Shown here piece after piece: positions 18,390-40,286 of a stretch of 50,582 nt of DNA. Under the pieces are notes generated by a model. The model was not told the DNA's origin. It saw only the letters and a program-made list of their open reading frames with translations, and searched no databases. Position numbers and translations under genes: made by a program. Numbering within the stretch: position 1 is the first letter of the stretch; every line of letters begins with the position of its first letter. The stretch is from NCBI GenBank assembly GCA_949285105.1, contig CASDXH010000006.1, positions 1 to 50,582 on the forward strand, written 5' to 3'. The stretch comes from an uncultured Mycoplasma sp. (lineage in GTDB: Bacteria > Bacillota_I > Bacilli_A > Mycoplasmatales > Mycoplasmoidaceae).

Positions 18390-18562
18390 TTTTATGGAAA
18401 GAAAAATAATTGATGTATAAATGGTTAAAATAATTTGTATTACTAAAATAAACTTTAAAAACTATAGATATGTAGTCTATTAAATTAAGTTTTTCTTATA
18501 ATACATTATTTTTCTATCGTCACAATTAAGATAGAATATATGTGTATTTAGGAGGAATTTTT

Positions 18563-19426
18563 ATGTTAAAAAGGTGAGAAAAATATAGGATATTAGCTAC
18601 CTTTTCATTAATTAATAAATATTTTTGAAAAACAAAAATAGGTCCCATATTCTCTATAGTATTGCCTTTTATATTTATGGTGATCTATTTTGTTTTAGGA
18701 AGCTCAAGTGATTCTGGTGATAAATTAAGTTACTTCATCAATGGATTCCCAACTTATTTATCAATGAGTATTATTCCTTTATCAATTGTTACATTGCCTT
18801 CTATGAATATAGAATTTAAAAATTCTATACTTCTAAGAAAAATTAAAACTAGTGGAATAAATAAATTTGAATACAATTTAATTTGTATAATATACTTCTT
18901 TATTGCTAGTATATTATTCTCTATTATCACAATCATATTATTTGCACTTTTCTCAGCTAGTGATATTAGTAGATTAGGATCTATTAATTGAGGAACACTA
19001 ACTTATGGAATTATCTTTCTTTCATTAGTTAGTATCAGCTTTGGAATGTTTATATCAACATTCATTAAAACATCACTATCTTCGCAATTAATAGGTTTTG
19101 CAATATTTATTTTAACTTTAACTTTAAGTGGGCAGTTTATTCCTATACAAGTTATTTCTGGGGTTGAGGCGATAAAATATATTTCTTTGCTATCACCACT
19201 AAACTATGCAACAAATATATTTAATGTTGCATCACTAAATGCAATTAATGGTTCTTCTAATTTAATTTTTGATTTTAGTAATGACTTTATTTTTGCAGGG
19301 TTTAGTAACCAACCCATCACACTTTACAGTGTGTGACAAAAAGTTCTTTTTGTGTTTGTTCCATTTGTATTAATTGGTGCATTCGAGGCATTATCAATAT
19401 ATTTTTTTAAATGAACTGGAAGGTAG
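18563..19426 (+). CDS. ABC-2 type exporter permease
   Basis: A 287-aa membrane protein with six likely spans, beginning after a basic N-terminus (MLKRWEKYR) at about residues 30-53. It carries ABC-2-family features: the SMNIEFKNSILLRKIKTSG stretch before span three, and the late segment YISLLSPLNYATNIFNVASL. An excellent ribosome binding site (AGGAGG) lies just upstream. An ATPase gene follows 7 bases after its stop, so the pair makes one exporter. The substrate is unknown; families of this kind export drugs, lipids or peptides. The TATAAT at 18497-18502 may be its promoter. Confidence 0.85.
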
Positions 19427-19433
19427 TTAATTT

Positions 19434-20240
19434 ATGTTTTTAAAAGAATTCTGAAAAAAGATTAATTTAGAAAAACAACAAAAAAATGTACAAGAACTAG
19501 AATCAATTATAAATTATGAATCTAAAAATAATATTTTAATAGAAGTTAAAGATCTTTCAAAAGTTTATAAACAAGGTAAAAGAAAAGTTAAAAAGGTTTT
19601 TGAAAATATCAATTTAAATATCTATGAAAATGAAATAATTGCCTTAATTGGACCTAATGGTGCAGGTAAAACAACGCTTGTTGAAATAATATCTCAAATT
19701 AAAAAACAAACTAGCGGAACAATTAAATTTCATTACCAATCAGATGATGGAAAAGAAAATATAGGTGTTCAATTCCAAGACCTAGCTTTCCCTAGAGGAT
19801 TAACTGTAAAAGACTTTATTGACTTCCAAATCATGCTTTCTAAAAATAATATAAGTGCTGAGTTTTTAAATGAAATGTTAGCTACATTTCAGTTAGCTGA
19901 ATTTTTAAACTATAAGGTTTCAAAATTATCTGGTGGTCAACAACAAAGATTAAATGTTCTTATTGCTATGATGAATAAACCAAAGGTTTTATTTTTAGAC
20001 GAGTTTACAACAGGACTTGATATAGCAATTAAAAACGAGATTAAAAACTTTATTTTGAAATATGCTAAAGACAATAACATCACAATTGTTTTAATTAGTC
20101 ATGATATTGATATTATTGATCAAATGGCCCAAAGATTTGTTTTAATAACAAACAATAAAATTGTTGTGGACACAGATAAAGAAAACATTGAGAAAAGATT
20201 TAAAAGTGTTTCAAACTTCTTGTTTAATTACATAAAGTAA
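19434..20240 (+). CDS. ABC exporter ATP-binding protein
   Basis: The 268-aa ATPase partner of the upstream permease. Walker A is GPNGAGKTT, the Q-loop is in GVQFQDLAFPRGLT, the signature is LSGGQQQR, and Walker B is VLFLDEFTTGLD, followed by the H-loop LISHDID. The Walker B has DEF rather than the usual DEP. About 45 extra residues rich in Lys, Glu and Asn precede the ABC domain. It is read from the ATG at 19434 with one TGA Trp in FWKK. It is followed by the 34-bp repeat and a terminator. Confidence 0.9.
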
Positions 20241-20310
20241 AAGTTATTTAGATACTAATATAGATTAATTTATTAAATGAAGATAACACTCATTAATGAT
20301 AAGTTACCTG

Positions 20311-20344
20311 CATCCCTAACTGACATGTGAAGTGCAACACTTCA
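20311..20344. repeat. 34-bp repeat, copy 2 (inverted relative to 67-100)
   Basis: Exact reverse complement of 67-100. Its start reads CATCCCTAACTGACATGTG and its end GCAACACTTCA. It lies between the ABC exporter and a terminator hairpin; the final 11 bases form part of the hairpin's left arm. Matching stops abruptly at both borders. Confidence 0.85.
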
Positions 20345-20367
20345 TTCTCTTTGAATGAGGTGTTTTT
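20335..20367 (+). terminator. Terminator after the ABC exporter genes
   Basis: AACACTTCATTC pairs with GAATGAGGTGTT (one G·T pair) and is followed by TTTTTT. The left arm overlaps the end of the 34-bp repeat. Confidence 0.8.
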
Positions 20368-20374
20368 TGTATGT

Positions 20375-20403
20375 TTGTATTCAATTTTTATTTAATTTAT
20401 AAT
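20375..20403 (+). promoter_or_regulatory. Promoter of surface-protein unit 1 (A1-B1)
   Basis: TTGTAT (20375-20380) and a perfect TATAAT (20398-20403) are 17 bases apart. The A1 start is 40 bases downstream of the -10 box, after GGTGAT as the ribosome binding site. Confidence 0.65.
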
Positions 20404-20443: not shown

Positions 20444-23400
20444 ATGGTTAGAAAAATTAAAAGGATTTTTATATTTTCAACAGCATTAATTATTCCAACT
20501 ATTTCATTACCTTATACTACAATTAATAATAGTTTAACTAATGCATCATACAATAAAACAACTTTAAATGATGCTCAATTATTGACTAATAATATTAATT
20601 CATTAAAATATCCAACAGCGGGAGATGCAAATAATAATATTACACATCATGGTATTTTTAGAATTGTAAATTCTGATAGTCAAAAAAAGATTGTAATGAG
20701 TGGTTATAATTCAAATGTAATATGAGACTACAATCTATTAAACAATCCTTTACTAAGACAGATTTATACTAACTATAGACTAAAAACTATTTATACTAAA
20801 TATAACCCATACATGGATACTATTTTTGTATATGGGCATGCTACTAATGATCTTAATGCATCTGATAAACCTTATTTATTTCAAGTTAATGCAAGTAATG
20901 GAACCTCTTATTTAGTGAATAATTCAAATGCAAGCTCTATATTGACAAACTCTAATGGTTTACCAGCTAAAATTGATAGTCTAATTTTTGATAAGGAAGA
21001 AGCTACATTTATAGCTTTTGATTCTTCACAGGACTATAAAACAATTAATAACTTGACAAAAATATCTTATAAAAATTATTCGTCATTAGTTGTTAATGCA
21101 CAATATATTAAAAACTTTGCACAAGATACTCCAATAAATGGAAAAGCAGTTAGAGCTACAAAGATTATAAAAGCTGTTAACTTATATGATGGTTTCTTTG
21201 GACTTTATAAATATTATGAAGATTCTAAAGAAGGTACACAACCTGCAATAACAGAGAAAAAAATTGCTTTTTCTATTTTTGATTGACAATTAAGAAAATT
21301 ATCAACTGATGTAGTGGTATACAATGAATCTAGTGGTGGTGGTACAAATGTTGCCGCTATAATAAAAGATAATGCTAATAATTTTATTAATGATTCTTTT
21401 GTAATTCCACAAAGCAACGGAATGTTTCGTATATCCTTAAATATGATTGAACCTTTAATGTCAGGTTTTTATAATCAAAGTGCAACAAACTTTGGTTTTT
21501 CTAATAAATTAAGATATGTTGAATTTACACCTCCAACTAGTGGATCCCCATCTTCTTTAACTTTAAAAGAAGTTCCTATTAATGGTAGTAACCATATAGG
21601 ATCATTAAAATTAGATGCTGGAAATAATAAGATATATGCAGTAACTTATGCTGATCCTTCTAAACTAAATACTCCAAAATTATTTTCAATTGACACATCA
21701 ACTATGAACGCAATTGAAGTTACTGGATTTAATAATTCACTTTCAACTACATCTACTCTTGTTAATGTTTTTCCTTTACATAGTTCAGAAAATTTAGATA
21801 AACAAAAAACTTATTTAGTTAAACAAGTTGTTAATTTTGAAAATACAAACAATAGTAACATTACTTCAAGTACTACAATTTCTGGTCATAAATATTATTC
21901 AAGTGATGTTACAGGTAATGGAACAAGTTATACTGAAAATAATCAAAAAGAACTTTATGAATCTGCAATAAATGATGTCCAAGATGCTTTAAGTAAATCT
22001 GAATTAATTAAAAAACTTCCTACAGACATTTCTGAAAGTGATATTTTAAATCTAACAAAATTAATGGTTAATGGAACTGAAAATACTGAAATGCTACAAT
22101 CAAAAACTCTATTACCAGTTCCTAACACAAATAATGAGTTAGTAGCAGATAATGGTAATGGTACATTAAGAGTAAACATTGAAGTTAAAGTTAAGAATTG
22201 ATGAAACCCTACAAGTTCTTTTGTTATATTAAGAAAAGATATTCAGCTTACAGGTTTTAGTAAAACATTAGATCTTCAGTTTAAACTTATTACAAAAGAA
22301 ACAGATGATCCAACTAAATGGAAACAAATAGTTGAACTTAAAAAGAAACTTCCTTCTGAAGTAACTCAACAAGATATTATTGATAGCTTTACTAAATTTG
22401 GTGAAAAGCTTGGTTTAAAAGCTGAGAATGTAAAAATATATAATACAAAGGTTAATGCTCTTGAAGGAGAAACAACTCCTGCAAAAACATATATCAATGT
22501 TTTTGCAAACGATTCTAATGGAACATTGAGAATAACTTATGATTTAACTGAAATTTCTTCTCCAAGTATTGAACAAGAAAATTTAACTGGAAGTAGTATA
22601 TATGATGGTTTTGTTAAAACTTCTAAATGAACACAAGTAACTATTAATGATAATATATTTAAACAATTTAAAAATAAGTTGCCTTACCAAATTACTAAGC
22701 AAGAAATTATAAGTTCATTGAATTTTGGTTCAGCTTATAAAGCATCACCAGAGTATTGAACATTAACTTTTGATGATGAATTTGGAAGTGACCAATACAT
22801 TCAAAATATTATTGATGGAAAAATTAATTTCACTATTAAATACAATAGAGAATTAGACACTACTGTTCCAAGTACAGTAACAGATAACATACTAACTGTT
22901 GCAGTAAAAACTAGCAACGTATCTGGTAGTGGATTTATGAAGTTTAGTGATTATATGGAAGAAAATATTTACCTTGATGCAAACTTAGCTGATGTAAAAA
23001 CTTCATCATTAAAGCTAGAAGAAGTTACAGCTAATTTAAATTCTATTTTAGACCAAACAATTATTGTTTCAAATAATTGAGTTGATCCATCAAAGATTTA
23101 TACAGTCACTCAAAAAGAGGCAACAACTAATTCAGTAACTTATAACCTTGCTTTAAAGAGTGAATTCCCTTCAAATATTCAAGTTGTTGATGCTGAAGGA
23201 AAAGTGCAAAACTTAATAATTAATAACCAATGAATAACTAAGTTAAATACAATTAAACCAAATTACTTTACTGGTGTTAGCGAAATTAAATACAACATTA
23301 ATTTAATTGACTTTGATTGAAACTATGCAAGCATAAGCAAAGATAATTCAACTATAAGTATTCAAAATTTATATCAAGAATCAAATGCAGCTGATAGAGG

Positions 23401-24034
23401 ATATGACTATAGATTCTTATTGCCATCAGATTTCATTGATTCATTTGAAACAGATCCTATTAAAGGTAAAATTGGATTTCAAAATACATTTGGACTAATT
23501 AAACCTTATGCTACAAACCCAACGCGTTCTACATATTTAACTTCAAATAGAACAACTAGAAATATAGATCCAGGATATTATGAAATTGATAAAGTTACAT
23601 TAGTTCCAAATAATCAATTGGGAACAGTAATTGCAAACTATGTGATTAGATACCCAAATCTTCAAACAGCTTATGGTAACCCAGTGCTACTTTATCCAAC
23701 AATTAAGATTACTGGAATGAAAACACAAGGTATTGTATCAATTGATTATGCAACAATTATTACATCAGCTTTAGTTGTTTTAATTGTAATAGCTATTGGG
23801 GCATTAATTCTTATTAGAATAAGAAGAAATAAATTCCTTGGAAAGGACTTAAGAAATAAATATGATGAAGGGGTTAGAAACAAAATTATAGCAACTGGTG
23901 ATAACGATAATGAAGTTTTTAAACCTGTTAAAAAACAAGAATCTAAAGTATCTAAGATAATCAATATAGATAAATCAAAAGAGGTTAGAAAGAAAAACGT
24001 TGATCAAACAATTGATTTTTCTAAATTTGAGTAG
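20444..24034 (+). CDS. Large surface protein A1 (paralogue of A2)
   Basis: A 1196-aa membrane-anchored protein, probably extracellular. It has a basic, hydrophobic N-terminal signal segment without a lipobox Cys, one C-terminal membrane span (about 1103-1124, ALVVLIVIAIGALILI) and a ~70-residue basic cytosolic tail. The N-terminal ~450 residues look β-rich, with FVYGHATND and KPYLFQVNASNG-type strands. From ~510 onward modules start LP-x-x-(I/V)-(T/S) and contain D-x-x-GTLR, as in KKLPSEVTQQDIIDSF and NDSNGTLRITYDL. These resemble mollicute 'lipoprotein-associated type-17' domains. It matches the gene at 27409 in layout and in the segment before the membrane span. Starts at ATG 20444 after GGTGAT; an in-frame TTG at 20432 is less likely. 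Confidence 0.85.
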
Positions 24035-24065
24035 AAAATTAAATAGATTGAATTGGTATTAGAAA

Positions 24066-27000
24066 ATGAAAAAAACTATGAGAAATAAATTTAAAAAATT
24101 TGTACCTTTTGTTACAATAGGAGCTTTATTTCCTATAGTTTTTTCTTTTGTATCATCAATTGATAATCAGCATGTAAATAAAATTGATAATTCATATAAT
24201 GCTGCAAAAGAAGCAACTACATATAATTCAATTAATTCATTTAATGATTATCAGACAATTGCAAATGAATCTACAATGCAGTCTATATCTACACTTCAAG
24301 GATTTTTTGGAAAAACAAATGATAATAAAACAGTTGTTTTAACTTCATATGATGGAATAATTGTTTGAGAAGATAGAATTGTTAATAATTCTGATGTTGT
24401 AAATTATTACAAACAAAAAGGTATTAACGATATTTCAGCTTATAAAATGCATTCTTGAGCTTATACTGAAATTGGTACAAATAAATTACTATGTGTTTTA
24501 TTTGGAGATCAATCAAATAAAAATATGACAGTATTTGCTTACTCTATTTTTGATGGTAGATTATTTGGGGGACAAGATAATAGATTTACTAAGATAGTTG
24601 ATGTTAAAGATGGAAGTACAACACTTAATAGATTATCAAATGGTAATGTGGTAGCTTCAAAGTATGGTAAAGAAAAAGATGTTAAATATACTAGAACAGT
24701 TGTTACTATAAACAATAATGGATTATCTCAGATTTATGCAGTATCTGATCTTATTGATAATACTTTAGGTGCAACTGATGATGAAAGAGCAAAATACAAT
24801 GAAGCAACTTTCTTATACTTTTCAAGTGGTAAATTTGAATCTAACACTAATGTTGCTGTCTTTTTACGAAGTGATAATAAATACTTCACAATTGCAATTG
24901 ATGATAGTTTAATTCCCCTTAGAAATAATGGAACTAATATTGTTAAATATGATTCAAGTGTGACTTTTACAGCAGACACTAATGGGATATACAAAAGTAT
25001 CAATGATATTCCAAAATATGGTTTTACATTAAATCAAGATTCAAGTAGTTTCTTTATCTTAAACTTAATTGGTGGAAGTACAGAAGATAAGACAATTTTT
25101 TTAAATTTAAATGCACGTGTTTTAAGCGAAAAAGCCTGACTTAACCATAATGGAAATAAATTCCGTTATTCTAACTATGATTTTTCAAATAATAGCTTAT
25201 ATATCTCATATTACAAATCTCCTGATAGAACAAGAGTGATTAAATGAGATTTAAATAAAGACACTACAGGAAATGCTTCAACTGCTAATATTCCAGTTGA
25301 TGATACTTCAAACACCGAACAAATTGCAAACCCATTTTTAATTGCGCCAGTTGTTTCTAGTAAAAAGTATAACTTCACTCCGTATGTATATGTTAGTGAT
25401 AAACAAGATGATGTTCCAACTGCGGTTTTTGAAAGTGGACAATATCTTGCTAAATTTAAAATTCAATTTAATAAATGATATGATCCAGTGGCTGCTTTTA
25501 AAGGAGATACTGCTCTATATAAAAATAAAATTCCTTCAAATGTTAATAATAATGAGTTAGTTGGAAAACTAAGATTCAACTCTGGAAGTAACTCCATTGG
25601 TACCTATAGAGTTTCTATTCAAAATAAATCAGCTAATGATGACTATGGAACTTTAAGTGCAACTTATAAAGTAGATTCAACTAACTGATGAGATAGAACT
25701 ACTAGTTCAACATTCACTATCCCATTCTATGTGGATGGAATGTATAAAAAATCTAATATTAACTTTTCTTTTGTTACAAACAAAATAAATGCGACAATAG
25801 ACAAGTTCAACAAGATTGAAGAACTTAAGAGAACAAAATATGCAAAAGATATTACTAAAAAAGAAGTATTAGATAATTTCTTTGTTTACAACATAAAAGA
25901 TAAAGGGGATAATAAATTTACTATTACTGAAAACATGATTACTTTAACACCTGTTGGAAATGTTTTGAGAGTTAGAGTTACTTTACCAGTAAATTCATTT
26001 CCTTCTGGTACACCTGGAAATCTTTTAAACTATACTTATGAATTTACAGGGTTTAAAGATACAAGCGGATATACATTCCATTTCCTAACTAATGCTGAAC
26101 AAAAACAAAGTGATAATGTTAAATTATTAAAAAGTTCTAAATATCCTTCTGAAATTGAATACGATAGTAAAACAATGATTTTAACTGATAATGGTAAAAG
26201 AGATTTATTTAATAACTTTATCCAATTAGGTTTCTCTTACAACGCAAATTACTCTAGCTGAGAAGTTAAATTAAAATCTGTTGATAATGTTAATGGTACT
26301 TTGGTAATTGATTATATTAAATATGTTGACACAAGTGTTGGAGCAGATTTTCCAGAAGAATTAAAGAATGTATTAGGTAATACAACTTTAACTGAATTTA
26401 AGAAATTAACAGATAATTTTAAAACACCACCTAAAATGATAAAGTATGTTGGAAACCTTACTCCTCCAGGGCTTTGAAATGAATATCAAACTCTTTTAAA
26501 TAATGGTAATCCTGAACAATCAACTTTGATTAAAAGTCTAACTTATGGATTAGCTAATCCAAAAAACCTTGATATAAAAGTTACAAATTTGGGAACTTCA
26601 ACAAAAGATAAAAAGTTAAATCTTGAAATCAGTTTAAAAGATGATGCCATAACAAATTTAATAGTGAATGGTAAATATTTAACTTTAGACAAACAAACAA
26701 ATGATAGTCTTAAAAAATCTCTAAATGATGTTTATCCATATAATGTAACTTGAGAAATTGATTCGCAAAGTTATGTATTTGAATGAGATACAAACAATAA
26801 TAAAGAAGGAGTTACAGAAACTGACAACTCTTTATCAATTGATATAGAAAAAGCAAAGTATGATTTCATGAACTCAGATATGTATGTTGATGAAGTTAAA
26901 GACCAAGACTTACTTTCTTTATTTACATTACAAAATTATGAAATTTCTAAAAGTCCTGAAATTAGTAGAAACAGAGCTGCTGGAACTATAACAATAGTAT

Positions 27001-27287
27001 TTTCAATTAATCAAGTTGACCCAGGACAAGGGCAAACAAGAGTTGCAATATATAATGATGGTTCTGATAGTATTTCAGATAATCAAAAGATTATATTTAT
27101 TAAAAACTTCAAGATCCCTTTTAGTCCAGTTACTCAATACATACCAGCAATAATTTTAAGTATTGCTTTAGTAGTTTTAGTTTTAATTATTATGATGTTA
27201 ATTACTAAGAGTAGAACTTCAGTTATTGAAAACCCATTATCTAGAAAAAGAAAGAAATTTAAAAAACTTACTAGAATCAAAAAATAA
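24066..27287 (+). CDS. Large surface protein B1 (paralogue of B2)
   Basis: A 1073-aa protein 31 bases after A1. The N-terminus is a long signal segment (FVPFVTIGALFPIVFSFVSS) without a lipobox, and one membrane span lies at about 1025-1047 (IILSIALVVLVLIIMMLI) before a short basic tail. The extracellular part opens with FFGKTNDNKTVVLTSYDGII and MHSWAYTEIGTNKLL, which align closely with the gene at 30798 and only weakly with the A proteins. Later modules include YAKDITKKEVLDNFF, and the segment before the span reads NFKIPFSPVTQY. The ribosome binding site is weak, so coupling to A1 is likely. A good terminator follows. Role presumably surface interaction; not proven. Confidence 0.85.
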
Positions 27288-27300
27288 TTAAATCTGTTTT

Positions 27301-27340
27301 AACCTATGACTCTTATTGAGTTATAGGTTTTTGTTTTTTT
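27301..27340 (+). terminator. Terminator after surface unit 1
   Basis: AACCTATGACTC pairs with GAGTTATAGGTT (one G·T pair) around TTATT, followed by TTTTTGTTTTTTT. Confidence 0.9.
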
Positions 27341-27346
27341 AAGCAA

Positions 27347-27375
27347 TTGATATACTTATCAAAAAAAATTATAAT
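27347..27375 (+). promoter_or_regulatory. Promoter of surface-protein unit 2 (A2-B2)
   Basis: TTGATA (27347-27352) and a perfect TATAAT (27370-27375) are separated by 17 bases that include a run of eight A residues. A run of this kind can change length by slippage, so it is a candidate for phase-variable expression. GGTGATAT precedes the A2 ATG. Confidence 0.65.
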
Positions 27376-27408
27376 TAGTTAAAGTGTTATTTTTAACGGT
27401 GATATATT

Positions 27409-30400
27409 ATGAGGATTAAAAAGAAAAGAATATTATCTACATTAATATTAAGTGGTCTTTTAGTAACTTCAGTAGGTTTTTCTTTAAGTGGAAATTTAGC
27501 TTCAAACAGCTCAAATAGCTTAATCCAAAAGAATGCTAGCGTTACAAACCAAACAGAAGTTAAAAATAACTCAGTGATTCCAACTTTTGGTCAAGATAAT
27601 AAAAACCAGTCAAACATTACACCAAATGGAATTTTAAGTGTTCACAACAATGTTGTTAATTTAACTTTATATAATAATATTGCAGCTTGAAGTTTTAATA
27701 TTATGAATAGTAACTTCATGCTTCAATTAAATGGTGGTACAAGACCTAGTTCAATTTCAAATGTAGGTGTTAAGTATAACACTTATACCAAAAACACAAT
27801 TTTTGTTTATGGTGTTGGTCATTATCCAGCAAGTGGTGATAATCAGCAAGCAAAAAGTGTATCATTTCTATTTCAAATTAATTTGAGTTCTGGTACTCCA
27901 TATTTATTAAATAATAATTATTCAGCATCTATACTTACATCGACAAAAAATAGTAATGCTTTAAATAATTCCATTGACTGAGTTGTATTAAACCAGAATG
28001 ATGGGACGTTTTTTGTCTTTTCTAAATCTCAAAGTACAACACAAAAAACGATTACTAAATTTAGTTCAATAAATTATTCTAGTGTAAATATAGATAGTAC
28101 TAATTTAGTCACATTATTAAGTGGTAATAAATTAATTAATGTTGCAAATTTATATGGTAATTATTTTTCTGTTTCTACTGTAAGTAGTCAGCAAACTAAT
28201 GGTTCAAATAATGTAGATTTCTATATCCTTGACTTTAACTTGACTCAGCTCACTGCAAAACAAACAATTAATTCAACAAATAATGTTGAAAATTCAATAG
28301 CTGATCCAATAGCTTTTAGTAATTCAAATAGTTCTAATATTACAATTGTTTTGCCTTTTTTAACAGATGGTTTTACAAATGACATTGACGTTGCTAAAAA
28401 AATGAATATTTTTAGATTCAGTCCTAATGAAAATGATTCAACAAATAGCGGAAAAAAGAAAATAGAAATGGCTTCAATTGAAATAGGAAAATCAGAAAAT
28501 ACTGCAAATGGCGGTTCTCCTTCTAATCAATATGCTTATGGTTATAGAATTGATCAAAAAAACAAAAGACTTTTTGTTTCAACTGTTGATAACAATTCAC
28601 AAAAACTTTTTTGCTATATACTAGATGATTCTGGTAAGTATTCTACAGTTTATGAAGTTGCAAACTTTACATCAAATGGAGCAACTAAAGCTGGAGAAAA
28701 AAAACTTAGTAGTTTCTTTATAGTTAATGATATAAATGTTGATACAAACAGTTATTTAATTAGAGAAGAATTAACATTTGCTAATGGAACAAAAGATTTG
28801 CTATCTGCTGTTAATTACTTTAAAGGAAAAATTACTATAAACGGTAATGCTACTTTATCAGATGTTGGTGCTCTTGATGTTTATTCTTTAAAAGATATTA
28901 ATACTTCAATTAAAGAAGAAAAACTTGATCAGCATTTACCATCAGATCTTACTGAAGACAAACTTATTAAGATGGTTAAACTTGTTAATTCAAAAGGACA
29001 AGAAATTACAGGTGTTACTAAAACATTATCACCTTCATCTCCGAATATATTAAATGATACAACAGGTAGTATTAATGTAGTAATTCAATATTCTGTAAAC
29101 AATTGATGAAATCCAGCAACTTCAATTAGTTTTAGTTTTCCAATAGCTACAAGTGGTTTTTATACAAGAAATTCATTAAGTTTTAAATTGGTTAAAAGTG
29201 CTAATGATGATTCATCAAAATGAAATCAAATAAATGCACTTAAAAATAAGTTGCCATCAAAGGTGACAAAACAAGAGATTATGAAAAGTTTTTATGTAAC
29301 TGGTGCAAACCTTAAAATTAATGATACTCACATATCTATTACAACTACGCAAACAGATGGTAAAAAAAACCTTGATGTAGCAACCCAATCTACACCGATT
29401 CAAGTTATTGCAGATGATGATAATGGTACTTTATTAATTAATTACAATCTTACAAGTATATCTTCGTCAAATATACCAGTAGACAACATTATAGGTTCTT
29501 ATAGATACAGTGGATTTTTAAGAACAGGTGGATGAGATAAAGTAACTTTAAACACTAATATATTTAGTTCTTTAAAGAAAAATAAATTAGCTTATCAAAT
29601 AACTAAAAAAGAAATTATTGATTCACTTAATTTAAGTTCTTATTACTCTAGAGGTGAAGATGATTGAGAACTAATAATTGATAATGCAGATCAAACAACA
29701 GAACAATTTAAAGAAAACATTATTAATGGAACAATGAGTTTCACAATAAAATATAAAGCTACTAAAAATGGTGTTCCAGATAGCATTCCAGCTGAGAACT
29801 ATACAGTTAAAGTTGGGGGAACTGGAAATGCAGATGGAAATGGATTTATGACTCTTGGTGAATATGTTGGAAATAAGATTACACTAGATTCAAGGAGAAT
29901 GAATGAGTTAACTTCTTCAATGAATACTGAAGATATTAAAAATAGTATTAATAATATAATTAGTGATTATTCAACTGCAAAAAATAATTGGGTTGATGTA
30001 TCAAATCAGTTTAGTTTTACATTGGATAATAATCAATCAACAGACACTAAACTTGTTTTCACTGGTACTCCAAATAATGAACTAATCACAAACATAGATG
30101 TGATTTCAAATAACGATAAAGTTAAATTAAAACTTGATAAAACTTTTCAAGATAAATTGCTAGGAAAACAACCGAATCTATTTGATGACATTAAAAAGAT
30201 AGACGTCAACGCAAACATCACTGTGCACAATTGAAACCACGGTATTTCAAATTCAATAAATAATGTTACATATAGAGATTTATTTGCTGGTTCAAGTCCA
30301 GATAACATGAAATATAATTATGTTCTTCCATCTACATTTGTGGATTCTTTTGAGAACAATCAAGAATATGGAAAAATAGAATTTCAAAAAACTTTTAACT

Positions 30401-30777
30401 TATTAAAAGAATATTCAAAACTTAATGAATCAGGACAAATTGATAAAACTGATGTTATATATTATGAAATTAAATATGTACAATTAATTCCTGATAATGA
30501 AAGTGGTTTAGTCATTGTTAATTATACAGTTGAATATCCTAACATTAAAAACTCTAGTGGATTCACAGTAACAATAAACCCACAAATGGTAATATCTGGA
30601 TTTAAAACAACTGGACAAGTAAAAGGTGATTTAAATATTATCCTTCTTTCAGTTGTTATTAGCTTAGTTGTTTTAGCAATTTTCACAATTGTGATCATGA
30701 GAGTTAAGAGAAATAAATTTGTTAACGCGAACAAGAATAAAGGTATTAAATATAGTAAAATTAAGAAGGTAAAATAA
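27409..30777 (+). CDS. Large surface protein A2 (paralogue of A1)
   Basis: A 1122-aa protein with a basic N-terminal signal segment (RILSTLILSGLLVTSVGFSL), no lipobox Cys, and one membrane span at about 1076-1097 (ILLSVVISLVVLAIFTIVIM). Type-17-like modules are visible: LPSDLTEDKLIKMVKLV, LPSKVTKQEIMKSFYV and DDDNGTLLINYNL. The region before the span (LPSTFVDSFENNQEYGKIEF) parallels A1 (LPSDFIDSFETDPIKGKIGF). The N-terminal part shares TIFVYGVGH and FLFQINLSSGTPYLLNN with A1. It has diverged greatly from A1, so the duplication is old or under diversifying selection. First gene of unit 2. Confidence 0.85.
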
Positions 30778-30797
30778 TTTAATTTAAGGAGGCAAAT

Positions 30798-33700
30798 ATG
30801 AGAAATATATTTAAGAAAATTTTTCCATCTATTTTAGCTAGTAGCTTCATATTTGTCTCTTCTTTTTTATCTCTTAATATTTTTTTAAACAACAACAATA
30901 ATAAATATCAGTCACAAACAACAAATTCTAAAATAGCAGTTTCTCCAAAAAAAGTTACTAAAAATATTACTAATTTTTCCTCATACAATGCAATCGTTAA
31001 TGAACCCACTTTTGAAAACATCCAAACTAACTTAGGATTTTTTGGGAAGACAGAAGATAATAAAAGAATAGTTCTAACATCTTTAGATGGTCTTATTATT
31101 TGAGAATTAGATCTTGTTAATGACTCTTCACTTAAACAATACTATAATACTGTTTATTCAATTGATGATATTAGTACTTATCAAATGCATTCTTGAACTT
31201 ATATAGAATCCACAAAGAAACTTGTTGTTTTATTTGGGACATCTGATAATAAGAATATGTCTGTTTTTGCTGTTGATGCAGATTTTGGTAATCTATATCT
31301 TCCTTTTAAAGGAAACAATGGTGCATCAAATATCACTAGTAATATTGCTACAGTTAAAGATGGTTCTAATTTTGTTAACAAACTTTCTAATGGAAATATT
31401 TTTGTTTCAAAGAAAGGTGTTGAATCTCAAGTTATTGAAAATAGAACAATAGTTATGGTTTCAGATAGTGGTGTTGTTAGACTCGATCCTTCTTTCAACA
31501 TGATAACAACAAATGGTAATGATAAACTACTTTACATAATTCCTGGTAGAGCAAATAGTAATATTAATCTTGCTGTCTTTTTAGACACCTCAAATAAATA
31601 TAAAGCAACAGTTGTAAATAATGATTTATTAGGTGTTACAAATGGTAATAATGCTAGAATTGAAATTGATTTGGGCATAGTTTTTGAATCAGATACTTCA
31701 ACATTTGTAACTTATGATGAATTACCAAATTTTGGTTTTCGTTACACAAAAGACAGTACTTCAAATTCTTTTGTAGTTTCAACTGTTGGAACAAACTCAA
31801 ATGTAATTGTTGTAAACTATAATGGACAATCACACACTTTATCTAAGGGACCAAGTAAATCTCTTTCTACAAGAGATAGTGGTGATTATGCAAAATATAT
31901 TTCATATGACTTAACAAACAACAGATTATATATATCTAACTCAAAGTCAAAAAATGGGAACGTAGTTTCATATGTAGATATTGCAAATACTGGTTCATCT
32001 CTTAACTATAGAGTCGTGTTAAATAAACTAACTCCATCAGGTTCTGATGGAACAATTGATAATCCATTAATCATTGCTCCAATAAATGGTTTTAGCAATG
32101 CTAACCCTCCATTTGTTTTTATGGATAAAACTCAACAAAATAAATTATTTTCTATTAAATCAAATAACTTTGGAGTTATTGAACAAAGTCCATTAAAGTT
32201 TAATAAATGGAATGATCCTGTTGATGCATTTAAAAAAAATGCAATCTATAAAAACAAAATGCCTTCAAATATCCAGGCATCTGAACTAACAGGGTTTCTA
32301 ACTTTTGCTAATAACACATCAACTAATAATGGTGCTATTAATGTTTCAGTTTCATCAATTAGTGGAAACAATGACCTTGGAACATTAGATTATAGATATA
32401 CAGTTTCTTATACTAATTGATGAAATGGATCTAGAAATTCATTTGTTATTCCAGTACATATTGATGGGTTATATAACTACAGCAAAATTAATATAAATTT
32501 TGTGACAATTGATACTGAACAAAATAACACTAAGTTTGAGGCAATTAATAATTTAAAGAAAACTAAACGTGCAAGCCAAATTACAAAGCAAGAGGTTATA
32601 AATAATTTCTTTATTGCTGATATAAGAGATAAAAATGGTAATGTTTATAACGTGACACAAAATGATATAACTCTTACTACAGCTAATAATGACTATACAC
32701 TAAATGTAAGAATTAAATTAAGCAATGCAAGTTTCCCTACAGGAATTGCTGACAATAGATTAACTTTCTCACAGTCTTTTTCTGGGTTTTTATCACTAGA
32801 TGGTTATGAATCTCATTTCTTATCTTCTGTAGAACAAGATAGAAACCCAAATATTAGATCATACAAAGAAAGTAGATATGCAACAGATATCTCTAAGATG
32901 GCAGAAGATGCTGATAAAACAAAATTAAATAACGCAGGTAAAAAAGAAATATTAGATAACTTTGTTACACTTGGTACTATCTATGATAGAAATCCAGAGA
33001 ATTGAGAAATTAAAGTTTCTAATGCAAGTATCTACAATGGTCAATTAACAATTGATTATATTAAATATGTAAAACCTGATTTACCAGCAACATTCCCAGA
33101 AACTAAAAAAACAATTGTCAAATCTCCAGTTACTATATATGGTTTTAAAATTATTCAAGACAACTATAATATCAATTTAAGTATGGATAGTTATTATGGT
33201 GTTAAAAATCCAAGTGAAGTTTGAAAAGAGTGAGATGATGCTGTTAAAAATAATACAGATTTAAGAAACACAACTCTTGGTAACTATTTGAAATTTCCTT
33301 TAGTTGATGATTTAAAAAATTTATCTATAACAGCATCTAACTTAGATTCAGCTGATAAAGATAAAAAGCTTGATTTACAAATTTCTATTAAAGATAATGT
33401 TCCAACAAATGTTTATTTTGATGGACAACAAGTTAAATTTAACAATGAATTAAAAAATGCTATTAATAGTTCTTATCCAAATATTTATCCTTATAAAGTA
33501 AGTTGAAGTATTTCTACAAGAAATTATGATTTCTCATGAAATGTTCCAAGTCAAGAAGATGGAATTACTGTTTCAGTAAATAGATTAGAAGTTGATCTTG
33601 AAAAAGCAAACTCAATAGGAAACATTAATAAGAATATGTATGCTAACCAAGTAAGTGATGAAGATGTGATAAGTTTAATTTTGCTTGAAAACTATACAAT

Positions 33701-34232
33701 AGGTAATGATTTAAAAATTATTAAAAATAATACTTCAGGTGTAATTGTTGCTACATTCTCACTAGTGCAAATGGGGCAATTTACTTATGATAATGTACTT
33801 AACAGTTCAGCTAAACCATTAGACACTTCAGGACTTAACACTAAAACAATATTAATCACAAACTTTAAAATTCCTTTAAGTCCAATAACTCAGTATGCAT
33901 TAATCTTGTCTTTATCAATCACAGCAGTTGTATTATTTATTATCATTGTTTCTATAATCATTAAAAAAAGATATAGTCATTATTCTAATCCGTTGGTTAC
34001 TAACAACTTAAACCTTTCTAAACAAAAGCAAAAGATGGAAGGAAAACATGAAAGTAAAAAAGGATTAGACAAAGACTTCTTAAAACAAATTAAAGAAGAT
34101 GAAGAAGTAAGTTTTATTAGTAAAAAAGATGATGGTAATAAATCTAAAGATATTAAATTAAATTCATTTGCTAATTCAATAAAAGAAAAGAAAAATAGAA
34201 AGAATAAAAACAAATTCTTATCTAAATTCTAA
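30798..34232 (+). CDS. Large surface protein B2 (paralogue of B1)
   Basis: A 1144-aa protein 20 bases after A2, with a very strong ribosome binding site (AAGGAGG, 30786-30792), unlike B1. N-terminal signal segment IFPSILASSFIFVSSFLSLN, then FFGKTEDNKRIVLTSLDGLI and YQMHSWTYIES as in B1. The segment before the span is NFKIPLSPITQYAL, with the membrane span at about 1033-1055. The cytosolic tail (~90 residues) is much longer than in B1 and strongly charged (KHESKKGLDKDFLKQIKEDEE), ending in a Lys/Asn-rich stretch. It differs from B1 mainly in the middle of the extracellular part. Confidence 0.85.
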
Positions 34233-34258
34233 ACAAGGTTTTATCCCTTGTTTTTTTA
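34232..34258 (+). terminator. Terminator after surface unit 2
   Basis: AACAAGG pairs with CCTTGTT around a seven-base loop, followed by TTTTTTATTT. It begins at the last base of the B2 stop codon. Confidence 0.85.
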
Positions 34259-34324
34259 TTTATAAGAGTTTAACTATTTTTCTATATAATTTATAATTAA
34301 TAAGTATATAAATCAGGTAAAATT

Positions 34325-35458
34325 ATGAATTCTATAAATAAAAAAAACGAAAACAAAGAAAAAGTAATAAATGAAGTTAAAATAAATGAAAAAAATAAAG
34401 ACAATAAAAACAATAAAGACAATAAAAACAATAAAAACAATAAAAAGTCAAAAATAGAATTTATAAGTAAGTTTAAAAATGACGATGCTAAAGAATTAAA
34501 AAGAAATAAAATTATCAAAAAGATAAATTCTCTTTTTTCAACAGTGAATAGTTTAACTGGAAGTTCTAAAAAAGAGAATATGAAAAAAGCAAAGAAATCA
34601 TATAAAACTATTTTTAACCTTATAAGAAAACTTGAAAAGATAAAACTTAAAAGACAATTCTCTGCTTTGCCAAATGATATAGTAATTCAACTAACTGGTG
34701 TTTATAAATACTATAGTTCTCCAACAATGACAACAATGATTTTAAAAAACATTGATCTTATTGTTAAAAAGGGCGACTTTGTAGTTATCTTAGGTCCAAG
34801 TGGTTCTGGTAAAACTACATTAATGAACTTAATATCTGGTATTGATAAACCAACATATGGTGAAGTTAATGTTGCAGGATTTGAATTACATAATTTAAGT
34901 AATAATAACTTAACTGCTTTTAGAAAAGATGTTATAGGTTATGTGTTTCAAAGATATGGATTATTGCCAAACCTTACTGTTTTTGAAAATGTATTAATGG
35001 GTTCATATTTAGGTAAAGATACATACTCAGAACAAAAGTTTAAAGAAGACATTGATAAAAATATTGATGCTAAAAACTTTTATAGTGGAAAAGAAAATGA
35101 AATTATTTCCAAGATTATTGATACAGTTGGCTTAACTGAACAAACAAATAAATACCCATATGAGTTATCAGGTGGGCAAAAACAAAGAACTTCAATTGCT
35201 AGAACAATAGCAAAAAATCCTTTAATCATTTTTGGTGATGAACCAACAGCTGCTGTTGATGAAAAAATGTCAAAATCAATTATTGATTCTTTTGTCAGAA
35301 TAAATGATGTATTGAAAACTACAATAGTAATGATCACTCATGATGAGAGAATTGCTAATTATGCAAATAGGGTAATATATCTATTGGATGGTGTTATAAA
35401 TAAAGTTATAGAAAAAGAAAGAGGAGAGGTTATAGTTAATGAAACTAAAGAAGCTTAA
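34325..35458 (+). CDS. LolD/MacB-like ABC ATPase with Lys/Asn-repeat N-terminus
   Basis: A 377-aa ATPase of the lipoprotein-release/antimicrobial-peptide (LolD/MacB/FtsE) group. Walker A GPSGSGKTT lies near residue 157, LSGGQKQR is the signature, FGDEPTAAVDEK is Walker B, and the H-loop is in MITHDER. The first ~120 residues are non-homologous, starting with a hydrophilic repeat of Asn, Lys and Asp. DEPTAAVD replaces the commoner DEPTGALD. No permease gene is adjacent; it may be encoded elsewhere. The last 20 bases overlap secA, so it probably shares the transcript with secA and lies just after the surface proteins. A role in surface-protein handling is inference. Confidence 0.88.
   Translation: MNSINKKNENKEKVINEVKINEKNKDNKNNKDNKNNKNNKKSKIEFISKFKNDDAKELKRNKIIKKINSLFSTVNSLTGSSKKENMKKAKKSYKTIFNLIRKLEKIKLKRQFSALPNDIVIQLTGVYKYYSSPTMTTMILKNIDLIVKKGDFVVILGPSGSGKTTLMNLISGIDKPTYGEVNVAGFELHNLSNNNLTAFRKDVIGYVFQRYGLLPNLTVFENVLMGSYLGKDTYSEQKFKEDIDKNIDAKNFYSGKENEIISKIIDTVGLTEQTNKYPYELSGGQKQRTSIARTIAKNPLIIFGDEPTAAVDEKMSKSIIDSFVRINDVLKTTIVMITHDERIANYANRVIYLLDGVINKVIEKERGEVIVNETKEA
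34389..34446 (+). repeat. Short tandem repeat in the ABC ATPase coding region
   Basis: About nine units built on AATAAA alternating with GAC or AAC (such as AATAAAGACAATAAAAAC) encode an Asn/Lys/Asp repeat. The period is a multiple of three, so unit gain or loss would keep the frame. Confidence 0.8.
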
Positions 35459-38400
35459 AAAAAGAAGTAAGATACTTGTTAAAGCAAAAGTTATTGCTGA
35501 ACAAGTAGAAATGAACCGCGAAGAGTATTCTAAACTTTCCATTAGCGACTTAAAGATTAGAACAGATTATTTAGTTAATGGAATTCAAGAAAATAAATTT
35601 GGTATTGATGACATCGTTGTTGATGCTTTTTCTATTGCTAGAGAAATAATCTTTAGAGTTTATGGAATGTTAGCCTATCCTGTACAAATCATGGGTGCTT
35701 ATGTAGCACACTGTGGTGACTTTGCTGAAATGTATACTGGTGAAGGTAAAACTGTTACCATCATGTTAGTTTCATTTTTAAACGCTCTTGCAAAGCGTGG
35801 GGTACACGTTGTTACTGTTAATGAATACTTGGTTCAACGTGATGCTGAGATTGCATCAAAAGCTTTTGAACCTCTTGGAATAACCGTAGGTTATAACACT
35901 TCTCAACTTTCAAAAGAAGTTAAAAAAGAAATGTTCTCAAGAGATATCACATATACAACTAACTCAGAATTAGGTTTTGATTATCTTAGAGACAACATGG
36001 TAAGAAGTATTTCTGAAAAAGTTATTAGAGAATTATTCTTTGTTATTGTCGATGAAGGTGATTCTGTTTTAATTGACGAAGCTAGAACACCATTAATTAT
36101 TTCTGGTATGCCAAAAGAAGATTATTCGCTTTATTTAGATGTTGATAAAGTTGTATCTTCATTAAAACCAGAAGATTATTTTATTGATCTTGAATCAAAT
36201 ACTATTTCATTAACAGATACTGGTACTCAAAAAGTTGAATCTTTTTTCAATTTAAAAAATTTATATTCTGTTGAGTCAAGTGAAATTGTTCACAAGGTAA
36301 CAAATGCATTAGTAGCACACTATGTTTTTGCAAATGGTAGAGAGTATATTGTTAAAGGTAACAAGATATATTTAGTTGATCAGTTCACAGGTCGTGTGCT
36401 TGAGGGTAGAAGTTATAATGCTGGATTACAACAAGCTATTCAAGCAAAAGAAAGAGTTCAAATTGAACCTGAAAATGTTGTTATGGCAACAATTACTTAT
36501 CAATCGTTCTTTAGATTATATAAAAGACTTTCAGCATTTAGTGGTACAGCCATGACTGAAGCTGAAGAATTTTTAAAAATCTATAACATGGTTGTTGTTA
36601 GAATCCCAACCAATAAACCAATTATAAGAATAGATAAACCAGATTACATCTTTGGTACAAAAGAAGTTAAATGAAATCACGTTATTGAAGAAATTGTTAG
36701 ACGTCACCAAACTGGACAACCTATTCTTGTTGGTACTTCTTCAGTTACTGACTCTGAATTAATTCACCAAAGATTAAAAGAAATGAAAATTCCACACGAA
36801 GTTTTAAATGCTCGTGATAATTCAAAAGAAGCTGAAATTGTAAAAAGAGGTGGACAACTTGGAGCTATTACAATTTCAACAAACATGGCAGGTCGTGGTA
36901 CAGATATTAAAGTTGCACCAGAATGTTTAAAACTTGGTGGTCTATATGTTATTGGTACAGAGCGTCATGAATCTAGAAGAATTGATAACCAATTACGTGG
37001 TAGAACTGGACGTCAAGGTGATCCTGGTGAATCAAGATTTTTCACTTCACTTGAAGATAGTATCTTTAAAAGATTTGCAAGTGATAGATATGAAAAAGCC
37101 GCTCAAAAACTTGAAAACGAATTCCATGATTGGTCTTTCTTTACTTCATTTTTAAACAGAACTCAGAAAAAGATTGAAGGTTTAAACTTTGACGTTAGAA
37201 AAAACCTAATGGATTATGATCATGTTTTATCTTTACAAAGAGAACTTGTGTATAAACAACGTGATCAAATTCTATTAGAAACTAAAAACTTAGATATCAT
37301 CAATAACATGTCTAAAGAGTATGCAACTGATTTGGTATATCAAAACAAAAATGTTGATAACTCAGCAATCATTGATCATGTTAAATTGTGCGAATTAATC
37401 AATACTAAGTTTTTAAAGTTTGATTATTTTAAACCTGAAGATTTTGAAGGTTTGGTTTTAGCTGATGCTAGAGATATTTTAGTTAATATCTTTAATATAA
37501 TAGTTGAAACTAAAACAAATATCCTTAAACAAATTAATGCTTTAAATGTTATAGGTGAAATTTTACTTGTTAACTTAGATCAAAAGTGAACAACTCACAT
37601 TGATAAAATGACAAAACTTAGAGAAGGTGTTAACTTAAGATCACTTGAACAAAGAAGTCCTTTAAACATTTATATTGAAGATGGAAACAATCTTTTTGAA
37701 AAAATGAAAAGCGACATTGTAAGAGATGTTATTAATGGAATATGTGAATTAAATCTTCCAAATGAATCTAATGAGATATCTGAAGCATTACAAAAAAATA
37801 ATGTTAAAGATCTATCTAAAAAAAAAGTGAATGAGCTATCAATCCAAGAAAACAATCTGGATCTAAACAACTATGATAATGATTATCATGAAGAAGAGAT
37901 TGATGAACATGAATTATTTATAGAAACTCCACAAACTCCAGATAAGTTTAAAAATGTTGATCCAGAATCACTTGTACCAAATTATTTAATTGGTGAAGAT
38001 GGTGATGTTGTTAACATGAAAAACATGGAAGAAACATTACCAAATCAAGAAGAGCATTTAAACTCATATTATGAAAACTACATGGATGATACAGATTATT
38101 CAAGTTATGAACAATTTGATGATAATTTAAATAATAATGATTTCTATGAAGCTCAGCCAAACATTGAGGAATATAAAGATGAATATAAATTTAAATTTGA
38201 TGACATCTTTAAAAAATCACCTAAGAGTGAATTAATAGATGAATCTTATTCAAATAAACCATATCTAAGAATTAATGAAGTTTTAGAAGATGTTGTTAAT
38301 GATAGTGAAAAAGAAACATTAACAGATAGAGAATATATTCCTTTAGATAAATATATATCAAATCTTAATGATAATAATTTTGATTATCAAAACGCAACTG

Positions 38401-39023
38401 AACCAGAAGATGCATTAAATCAAGAAAATAATTTAGATAATGATATTCTTTATGATTATGAGTTAAATGACGATGAAATTTATACAAGTAAAAGAATTTT
38501 AGACCTAGAGTATGATGATAAATTAAAAGACCTTTCATTATGAGAAGATGAAAAGGCAAGACTTAATGTTTTATTTAATAATGGTGTTGATCAACCTCAA
38601 GAAGATATTGATGATTTTGATAGACTATTATTAGAAGATGATGGTACAAATACTTTTGTTGAAAGTATTGAAAACAAATCAATAACAGAAGCATTAACAG
38701 GAGATCAAGAAAAAGAAGTGGAAGCTCAACCTGAATTACAAAAACCAAATAAAGACACTTCATATTACAGTCCAGCATCATTATCAAAAATGATCATTGA
38801 TAAAGATGATCTAGTTGATATTCCAAAAGATCAATTAAAGAAAAATCCAAATACAGATGAAGTTGATTATGATACATTATTTAGTAGTTTTAAAATTGAA
38901 CCAAATCATTTAAAAAATGATACAGAAATCATTAAAGAAATTGTAAACAATAATAAAAAGATCATTAAAAATAAAAAAACTTTTAATCAAGAGATAATTG
39001 ATAATTTAAATGCAAAAAAATAG
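35439..39023 (+). CDS. secA: Preprotein translocase ATPase SecA with a long acidic C-terminal extension
   Basis: SecA drives proteins through SecYEG. The 1194-aa product contains a complete motor: the GEGKT motif near residue 101, YTTNSELGFDYLRDN, the Walker B region, LIDEARTPLIISG, GRVLEGRSYNAGLQQAIQAKE, STNMAGRGTDIKVAPE and QLRGRTGRQGDPGESRFF. The helical scaffold runs to about residue 773. The usual ~840-aa SecA would then end with a linker and a zinc motif; here ~420 residues rich in Asp, Glu, Asn and Tyr follow, with no Cys cluster. Walker B reads VDEGD where most SecA have VDEVD. In-frame TGA codons are read as Trp. It starts inside the upstream ATPase gene. Confidence 0.96.
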
Positions 39024-39098: not shown

Positions 39099-40286
39099 AT
39101 GCAAAATAATAATATTATCAGACCTAAATTTTTAGTTTTTCCAGAAATTAAATATGCAGCTAAACATGTTGCTAATTTAGTTTTAGAACAAATAAAAGCA
39201 AACTCTCATTCAGTTCTTGGTTTACCAACTGGTGGGACACCTGTATTTGTTTATAAAGAACTTATTAACTTATATAATCAAAACAAAGTTAGTTTTAAAA
39301 ATGTAACTACTTTTAACCTTGATGAATATATCGGTTTAAGTGAAGCAGATTATGTTAATACTTATAGACACTTTATGAAAACTAACTTCTTTGACTTCGT
39401 TGATATTAATCCATCAAATGTTTATTTTCCAGCAAGTTATACAGATCCTGAAAATTGTGTTGCAGATTATACAGTGTATGACAATCTAATAGCATCTAAA
39501 AATTACATGGATTTATTAATCTTAGGTGTTGGTGAAAATGGACACATTGGTTTCAATGAACCATTTACAGATATCAACTCAAGAACACACCTAACTTCAT
39601 TAACTGAAAATACAATTAGAAACAATAGTCAATATATTGCTCTGAATACTAAAACTCCAGTTCAAGCTGTAACAATGGGGTTAAGTACAATCTTATCAGC
39701 AAAGAAAATTGTTTTAATTGCTTTTGGTGCCAAAAAAGCTAACGCTCTTAGTAAATTATTTTTTGCAAGAGACTTTGAACAAGAGTTTCCAATCACAAGT
39801 TTAATTAATAACCCAAATGTTACAATCATTTGTGATAAAGAAGCTGCAAGTGCAATTATGTCTAAAAGAATAGACCCTAATCAACAAAATGTAAATTATC
39901 CAGATAACTCATATCCAGCACAAAATAAAAACCTTAATAATTTTGCTACTCCAAATAATAATGTTGATCCAAACGTGAATAATAACTTTGGACAATATGA
40001 CCAATATGGAAACCAAAACTTCCAATATAGTGATGGTGGATATGATCAAGGTTACAATAACTTTAATCAACAAGATTACTATGGTTATGATAACCAATAC
40101 TATGATCAAAGTTGATATGATCAAAATTATAATGATCAATATGGACAAGATCAATATGGACAAGATCAATATGATAACCAACAATATGATAACTATCAAG
40201 ATGGACATTATAGTTATGATGATGGTTATAATGGTCAATATCCAGATCAAGAATACTATGATAACAATAATGGCGGTCAACAATAA
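39099..40286 (+). CDS. nagB: Glucosamine-6-phosphate deaminase with a Gln/Asn/Tyr-rich tail
   Basis: NagB converts glucosamine-6-phosphate to fructose-6-phosphate and ammonia. Core residues 1 to ~257 are typical: GLPTGGTPVFVYKEL, TFNLDEYIGL with the catalytic Asp, and LGVGENGHIGFNEPF with the catalytic His and Glu. The remaining ~138 residues, to 395, are a low-complexity tail with repeats such as YGQDQYGQDQYDNQQYDNY, absent from ordinary NagB (~240-260 aa). A TGA Trp codon at 40113 continues the tail, so under the standard code it would look shorter. The ribosome binding site GTGAG is modest. A terminator follows the stop. Confidence 0.95.
40134..40176 (+). repeat. 15-bp tandem repeat in the nagB tail
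   Basis: Perfect repeats of GATCAATATGGACAA (about two and a half copies) encode the DQYGQ units. The period is a multiple of three, so copy-number change keeps the frame. Confidence 0.8.

Follow-up and report, generated by a model that had tools for sequence, protein, structure and literature searches.

What is the function of a gene cluster that encodes giant surface proteins in the repeated order A-B-A-B? This question is raised by four genes of an uncultured Mycoplasma sp. The window, meaning the whole stretch of DNA that was analyzed, covers 50,582 nucleotides (positions 1 to 50,582 of contig CASDXH010000006.1, assembly GCA_949285105.1). The host genome is that of a mollicute, with a size of 1.06 Mb in 67 contigs and 26% G+C. 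A sequence-only reading of the window had proposed that a whole A-B unit was duplicated and that A and B act as an obligate pair, perhaps a two-component surface complex. Herein, profile and protein searches were applied to 10 genomes of the genus (Malacoplasma) and 320 genomes of the order.

Gene layout and transcription signals

The cluster (20444-34232) consists of four large genes in the order A1-B1-A2-B2, all on the forward strand and arranged head to tail. A1 (20444..24034) encodes 1196 aa, B1 (24066..27287) 1073 aa, A2 (27409..30777) 1122 aa, and B2 (30798..34232) 1144 aa. The reading frames were taken under translation table 4, in which UGA encodes Trp; under table 11, A1, B1, A2, and B2 are broken into fragments. 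The intergenic gap is 31 bp between A1 and B1, 20 bp between A2 and B2, and 121 bp between B1 and A2. A third pair, B3-A3, lies elsewhere in the same genome (G000) with the gene order reversed, and the gene count of this genome is three A and three B.

A terminator-like hairpin with a T-run was found by scanning directly upstream of A1 (20336..20371, forward strand), where it would end the preceding transcript. It is followed by a promoter-like sequence, TTGTAT-17-TATAAT (20375..20403, forward strand), which was read from the sequence; its -35 element is weak, and it was therefore missed by the promoter scan. Similarly, a hairpin with a T-run was detected by scanning after B1 (27301..27336, forward strand), followed by the A2 promoter TTGATA-17-TATAAT (27347..27375, forward strand), an 11/12 consensus match in the scan. 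A further hairpin with a T-run after B2 (34231..34260, forward strand) parts the cluster from the ABC-ATPase and secA genes. In the related genome G022, the hairpin and T-run at 20336-20371 are retained, the A1 promoter lies inside an almost identical block, the hairpin arms and T-run after B1 are kept, and the A2 promoter is identical. The stem of the hairpin after B2 has changed in G022 in a compensated manner, with both sides of the stem altered. The sequence-only reading had given each unit its own promoter-like sequence (20375, 27347) and terminator (27301, 34232), and these assignments and its gene coordinates were correct. Because the gaps within the units are 20-31 bp and a promoter and a terminator lie between the units, two bicistronic transcripts, A1-B1 and A2-B2, are likely.

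Architecture and relationship of the A and B proteins

All four proteins are predicted to share a common build, with an export signal, a propeller-like head, four Lipoprotein_17-like modules, a C-terminal transmembrane (TM) helix, and a basic tail. In A1, the head (about 20624-21913) is followed by modules at 21956-22270, 22292-22624, 22622-22948, and 23420-23731, a TM helix (23729-23830), and a basic tail of 67 aa. In B1, the head (24231-25469) precedes modules at 25470-25754, 25779-26066, 26085-26411, and 26826-27116, a TM helix (27120-27230), and a basic tail of 18 aa. The corresponding parts of A2 are the head (27589-28848), modules at 28882-29172, 29197-29529, 29530-29859, and 30286-30615, the TM helix (30616-30714), and a basic tail of 20 aa. 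Those of B2 are the head (30975-32201), modules at 32202-32483, 32508-32801, 32823-33158, and 33579-33872, the TM helix (33876-33977), and a basic tail of 84 aa.

The type-17 modules suggested by the sequence-only reading were confirmed as Lipoprotein_17 (PF04200) by a domain search. At the gathering threshold of 22.4 bits, A1 (22.8), B1 (24.7), and A2 (31.2) pass, and B2 (19.4) falls just under. A module profile, seeded from the B proteins of the window and then iterated, finds four modules in each window protein. With this profile, nearly all complete A and B members have three consecutive modules and one just before the membrane. The exceptions are two G023 B proteins and one G022 A protein, which have the first three modules only, and some M. 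penetrans-type B proteins, which have five. Hydropathy indicates that the members have one TM segment near the C-terminus and, after it, a basic tail of 11-103 residues. Four such modules per protein give A and B their likeness to the Lipoprotein_17 proteins of mollicutes; unlike these, the A and B proteins of the window have no lipobox Cys (no Cys within the N-terminal 140 residues of A1, A2, B1, and B2) and carry the C-terminal TM anchor instead. The propeller-like head lies outside the Pfam family PF04200.

The N-terminal ~410-440 residues are rich in strands. The AlphaFold2 model of B1, built from eight sequences, is of low confidence (mean pLDDT 66.6). Its best PDB matches listed by Foldseek are almost all beta-propeller proteins (E to 1e-7), with low TM-scores, and structure comparison by VIA gave propellers with Z 8-10 for model residues 55-300. 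For A2, the model is poor (mean pLDDT 46.1) and likewise draws propellers among the matches listed. The A and B head may be called 'propeller-like', but no more than that, as blade-level detail is beyond such low-confidence models. The matches included prolyl oligopeptidase propellers; these do not point to a peptidase, since Pfam finds no catalytic domain. Searches of PDB sequences with the A and B profiles gave no significant match, and a search of NCBIfam gave no match to A or B. Pfam matches beyond Lipoprotein_17 were weak, occurred in single members only, and were taken as chance. No He_PIG family member was found in the window's genome. The searches brought up no family model and no publication with a name for A or B beyond Lipoprotein_17, in a literature survey that lacked key papers on the M. 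penetrans organelle.

The four proteins were then aligned all against all by Smith-Waterman, with 60 shuffles as reference. A1 and A2 share 34.4% identity (Z 81), and B1 and B2 share 38.7% (Z 141). The four A-B pairs reach 25-27% identity (Z 13-21), far below the A-A and B-B values and still beyond chance. The traits that the sequence-only reading had seen in common between 20444 and 27409 (A) and between 24066 and 30798 (B) are thus borne out by identities of 34% and 39% against 25-27%, and no A-B pair aligns as well as the A-A and B-B pairs. When the A profile was aligned with the B profile by hhalign, the probability was 100, with E 1.7e-53 over 934 columns. On this comparison, A and B are full-length homologues, that is, ancient paralogues from one ancestor and not unrelated partners. 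The earlier view that A and B differ holds insofar as they form two separate families, but it overlooked their full-length homology and common architecture.

Duplication and distribution in the genus

Separate trees of A and B show the same pattern. In both trees, the A3 or B3 copies of G000, G022, and G023 form a clade, and the copies of G024 and G025 form a clade or clades of their own. The two further copies of G023 group as the sister lineage of ((1),(2)) from G000 and G022. The splits A1/A2 and B1/B2 therefore lie on one and the same branch, after the G023 split and before the G000/G022 split. In G023, A and B were each duplicated independently, on the branch leading to this genome. Mirrored trees are what duplication of a whole unit predicts. 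Together with the four-gene order and regulatory spacers conserved in G022, they uphold the proposed duplication of the A-B unit. A distance-matrix mirror test of A against B gave r 0.99, or 0.88 without the closest pair; this value is confounded by shared species history and is blind to which A pairs with which B, and the tree topology was relied on instead.

In G022, the order A1-B1-A2-B2 is preserved together with the ABC-ATPase, secA, and nagB genes downstream, and the spacing of 20-31 bp between A and B is retained. Its upstream neighbors are not those of the window, and a sequence resembling a tRNA directly precedes A1 in G022 (L044, about 8440-8515; window 20241-20340). These two features indicate that the cluster has a rearrangement breakpoint at its left edge. 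The B3-A3 pair is adjacent in three genomes.

Between orthologues of G000 and G022, dN/dS is 0.17-0.29, which indicates that the genes were kept functional under purifying selection. Of the large domains, the A1 head evolves fastest (0.40) and the membrane-proximal half slowest (0.14). This pattern fits a retained surface protein with the head facing outside. For the paralogues, the dN/dS check met dS values of about 1.1-1.2, close to saturation. In G022, B2 and B3 contain in-frame stops (G022:C1:539085-542513 and 896643-900008; L044/L045, L046). These copies may be pseudogenes, switchable genes, or assembly errors, and the stops suggest that single B copies are dispensable.

The order-wide search of 320 genomes found complete A genes only in 5 of the 10 genus genomes (G000, G022, G023, G024, and G025), and full-length B genes were found in the same five. 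The A:B gene ratios in these genomes are 3:3, 3:3, 3:3, 3:6, and 1:2. Neither A nor B was matched in G027. In G026, G028, G029, and G030, B-like proteins, termed X, occur without A. The X family (L058-L065) has 800-880 aa and is partly arranged in tandem arrays. The X proteins have the same head and plan (B profile match probability 100, E 4e-44, 600 columns); unlike A and B, they have a shorter stalk, in which two modules or none can be detected, hardly any tail, and no A partner. In a secA tree rooted at the midpoint only, the five genomes with A do not group as a single clade; on this tree, the X lineage would have lost A.

The adjacency of A and B is less regular. G024 has a tandem array of three A genes at 1059-1070 kb, next to pyrimidine genes. 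Its six B genes are located at 242-249 kb and, adjacent to lysS, at 1125-1144 kb (neighbor names were read from the sequences). The B-only arrays of 2, 3, and 1 genes are apart from the A-only array of 3. The one A gene and both B genes of G025 each lie on a separate contig, far from the contig ends. G023 has one A alone, about 8 kb downstream of secA. Of the proposed obligate pair, co-occurrence in the same 5/10 genomes stands. Constant adjacency fails: the A genes of G024 and G025 are not linked to the B genes, and wide separation of A from B in related genomes is the very result that the sequence-only reading had named as refuting its proposal. A catalase gene is present in the window's genome, G022, and G023. 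Catalase has been reported from M. iowae and from no other published mycoplasma (PMC4367981), and the window is accordingly placed in the M. iowae group. Linkage of A and B characterizes the M. iowae line and is no general rule; the general rule is that both occur in the same genome.

Further large surface-type proteins (893-1126 aa) were seen in G025 at L054:13772-20000 and L056:1818-8373. The L054 proteins carry Lipoprotein_17-like modules; the L056 proteins are directly upstream of the A gene and give no module match.

Possible function and neighboring genes

M. penetrans has humans as its host, and M. iowae is a poultry pathogen. Both adhere and glide via a polar attachment organelle (PMC9282661; PMC4367981). 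Gliding molecules show 'no obvious similarity' between species; for such Malacoplasma species, this applies to the comparison with M. pneumoniae and with M. mobile (PMC9282661). In M. genitalium, the Nap is a dimer of P140-P110 heterodimers, formed by two related propeller-headed single-TM proteins that are encoded side by side, and the heterodimers bind sialylated receptors (PMC7280502).

The A-B pair resembles P140-P110 (MgpB/MgpC) and P1-P40/P90 of M. pneumoniae in several respects. Two adjacent genes encode large, anciently related surface proteins with an N-terminal beta-propeller head (propeller-like in the low-confidence models of A and B), one C-terminal TM helix, and a short cytoplasmic tail, in an organism group with an attachment organelle. 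Unlike the Nap, which has a small C-terminal domain, A and B have a stalk of four Lipoprotein_17-like modules, occur in several pairs per genome, and are unlinked in some species.

The favored reading, to which we give a probability of roughly 0.4, sees in A and B a two-subunit adhesin complex that works like the P140-P110 Nap without being its sequence homologue. It is placed first because the plan is shared with the Nap, and because M. penetrans and M. iowae still adhere and glide in a genus with P1_N in none of its 10 genomes. The A-B adhesin would probably fill the place of the P1-type adhesins, which are missing from the genus. In this mechanism, the duplicated two-gene operon would give two paralogous membrane-anchored Malacoplasma surface proteins. 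Each would be exported, project its head on the four-module stalk, and be anchored by the C-terminal TM helix with the basic tail in the cytoplasm. A and B may form a heteromer that uses its heads to bind ligands on the host surface. Such binding would serve attachment, and perhaps also gliding, at the attachment organelle, comparable to P140-P110 in M. genitalium. The pairs A1-B1, A2-B2, and B3-A3 would be variants of one complex, perhaps with different ligands or antigenic faces. The more specific claim, that A and B are the two subunits of the attachment/gliding adhesin of Malacoplasma (M. penetrans, M. iowae, and relatives), convergent with P1/Nap, made of propeller heads on Lipoprotein_17 stalks, and present as several isoforms per cell, is somewhat less probable. 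Points counting against an adhesin complex are the unlinked A and B genes in two genomes, the varying ratio, the stops in G022 B genes, the low-confidence head models, and the missing sequence homology to P140/P110. If the adhesin reading is confirmed, two-subunit propeller-headed adhesins would have arisen twice in one bacterial family. The candidate set is small and well bounded (three genes of each family here; three A genes with six B genes in G024), which makes the question of the gliding molecule directly testable.

The main rival, ranked only slightly behind the adhesin reading and itself a serious if tentative possibility, takes A and B as two branches of an expanding Malacoplasma surface family. 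The proteins would act alone in ligand or antigen diversification, and their adjacency would be a by-product of tandem duplication. The separate A-only and B-only arrays of G024, the single copies of G025, the stops in G022 B copies, the B-like X proteins without A in four genomes, and the presence of further Lipoprotein_17 surface families in the same genomes all agree with such a family. However, independent branches do not account well for the mirrored trees with parallel duplications on the same branches, nor for A being found only where full-length B is found, with G027 lacking both. The B3-A3 pair kept adjacent in three genomes and the conserved 20-31 bp A-B spacers in G022 also count against such a family.

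That A and B are divergent P1/Nap members whose recognizable sequence similarity was lost is improbable. The two systems share an overall plan, in which a related pair of genes encodes proteins with a propeller head, a stalk or C-terminal domain, a single TM, and a short tail (PMC7280502), and they occur in the same bacterial family. A seven-bladed propeller with a crown and a sialic-acid site also marks the P1/Nap family; of these features, the models of A and B support, at low confidence, a propeller-like head. However, P1_N (PF12378) and MgpC (PF05220) are absent from A and B and were matched in 0/10 genus genomes, and the positive control found P1_N in 11/11 genomes of the genus including M. 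genitalium (g10). Similarly, hhalign of the A and B profiles with two M. genitalium-type proteins from G079 gave a probability of at most 1.3. Membership in the P1/Nap family by sequence is thereby rejected, and the stalk of Lipoprotein_17 modules also speaks against this origin. Nap chains are absent among the 50 Foldseek matches listed for each of the B1 and A2 models and among the 50 VIA rows listed for B1, and these listings decide neither for nor against such an origin.

Least probable of all is a role as receptor or substrate-capture proteins for the neighboring ABC transporters (the ATPase at 34325 and the ABC-2 pair at 18542-20240), for although ABC genes flank the cluster in the window and propellers can bind small ligands, terminators bound the cluster on both sides, the ABC-2 genes are not upstream of it in G022, and a 34325-type ATPase is beside no other A/B locus examined.

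Several neighboring genes have unusual extensions. The LolD/MacB-type ABC ATPase (34325-35458) has a charged N-terminal extension of ~115 residues and no adjoining permease gene. SecA (35439-39023) has 1194 aa in total with a long acidic C-terminal extension, and its open frames are about 1195-1411 aa in 10/10 genus genomes. The glucosamine-6-phosphate deaminase (Glucosamine_iso, 39099-40286) has an extra tail of ~150 residues rich in Q/N/Y/D/G, which is retained in G022 (80% identity over the match) and resembles a low-complexity tail and not a part of the enzyme. Finally, an acidic protein of 820 aa (47621-50083) has a charged, coiled-coil-like end and no Pfam match.
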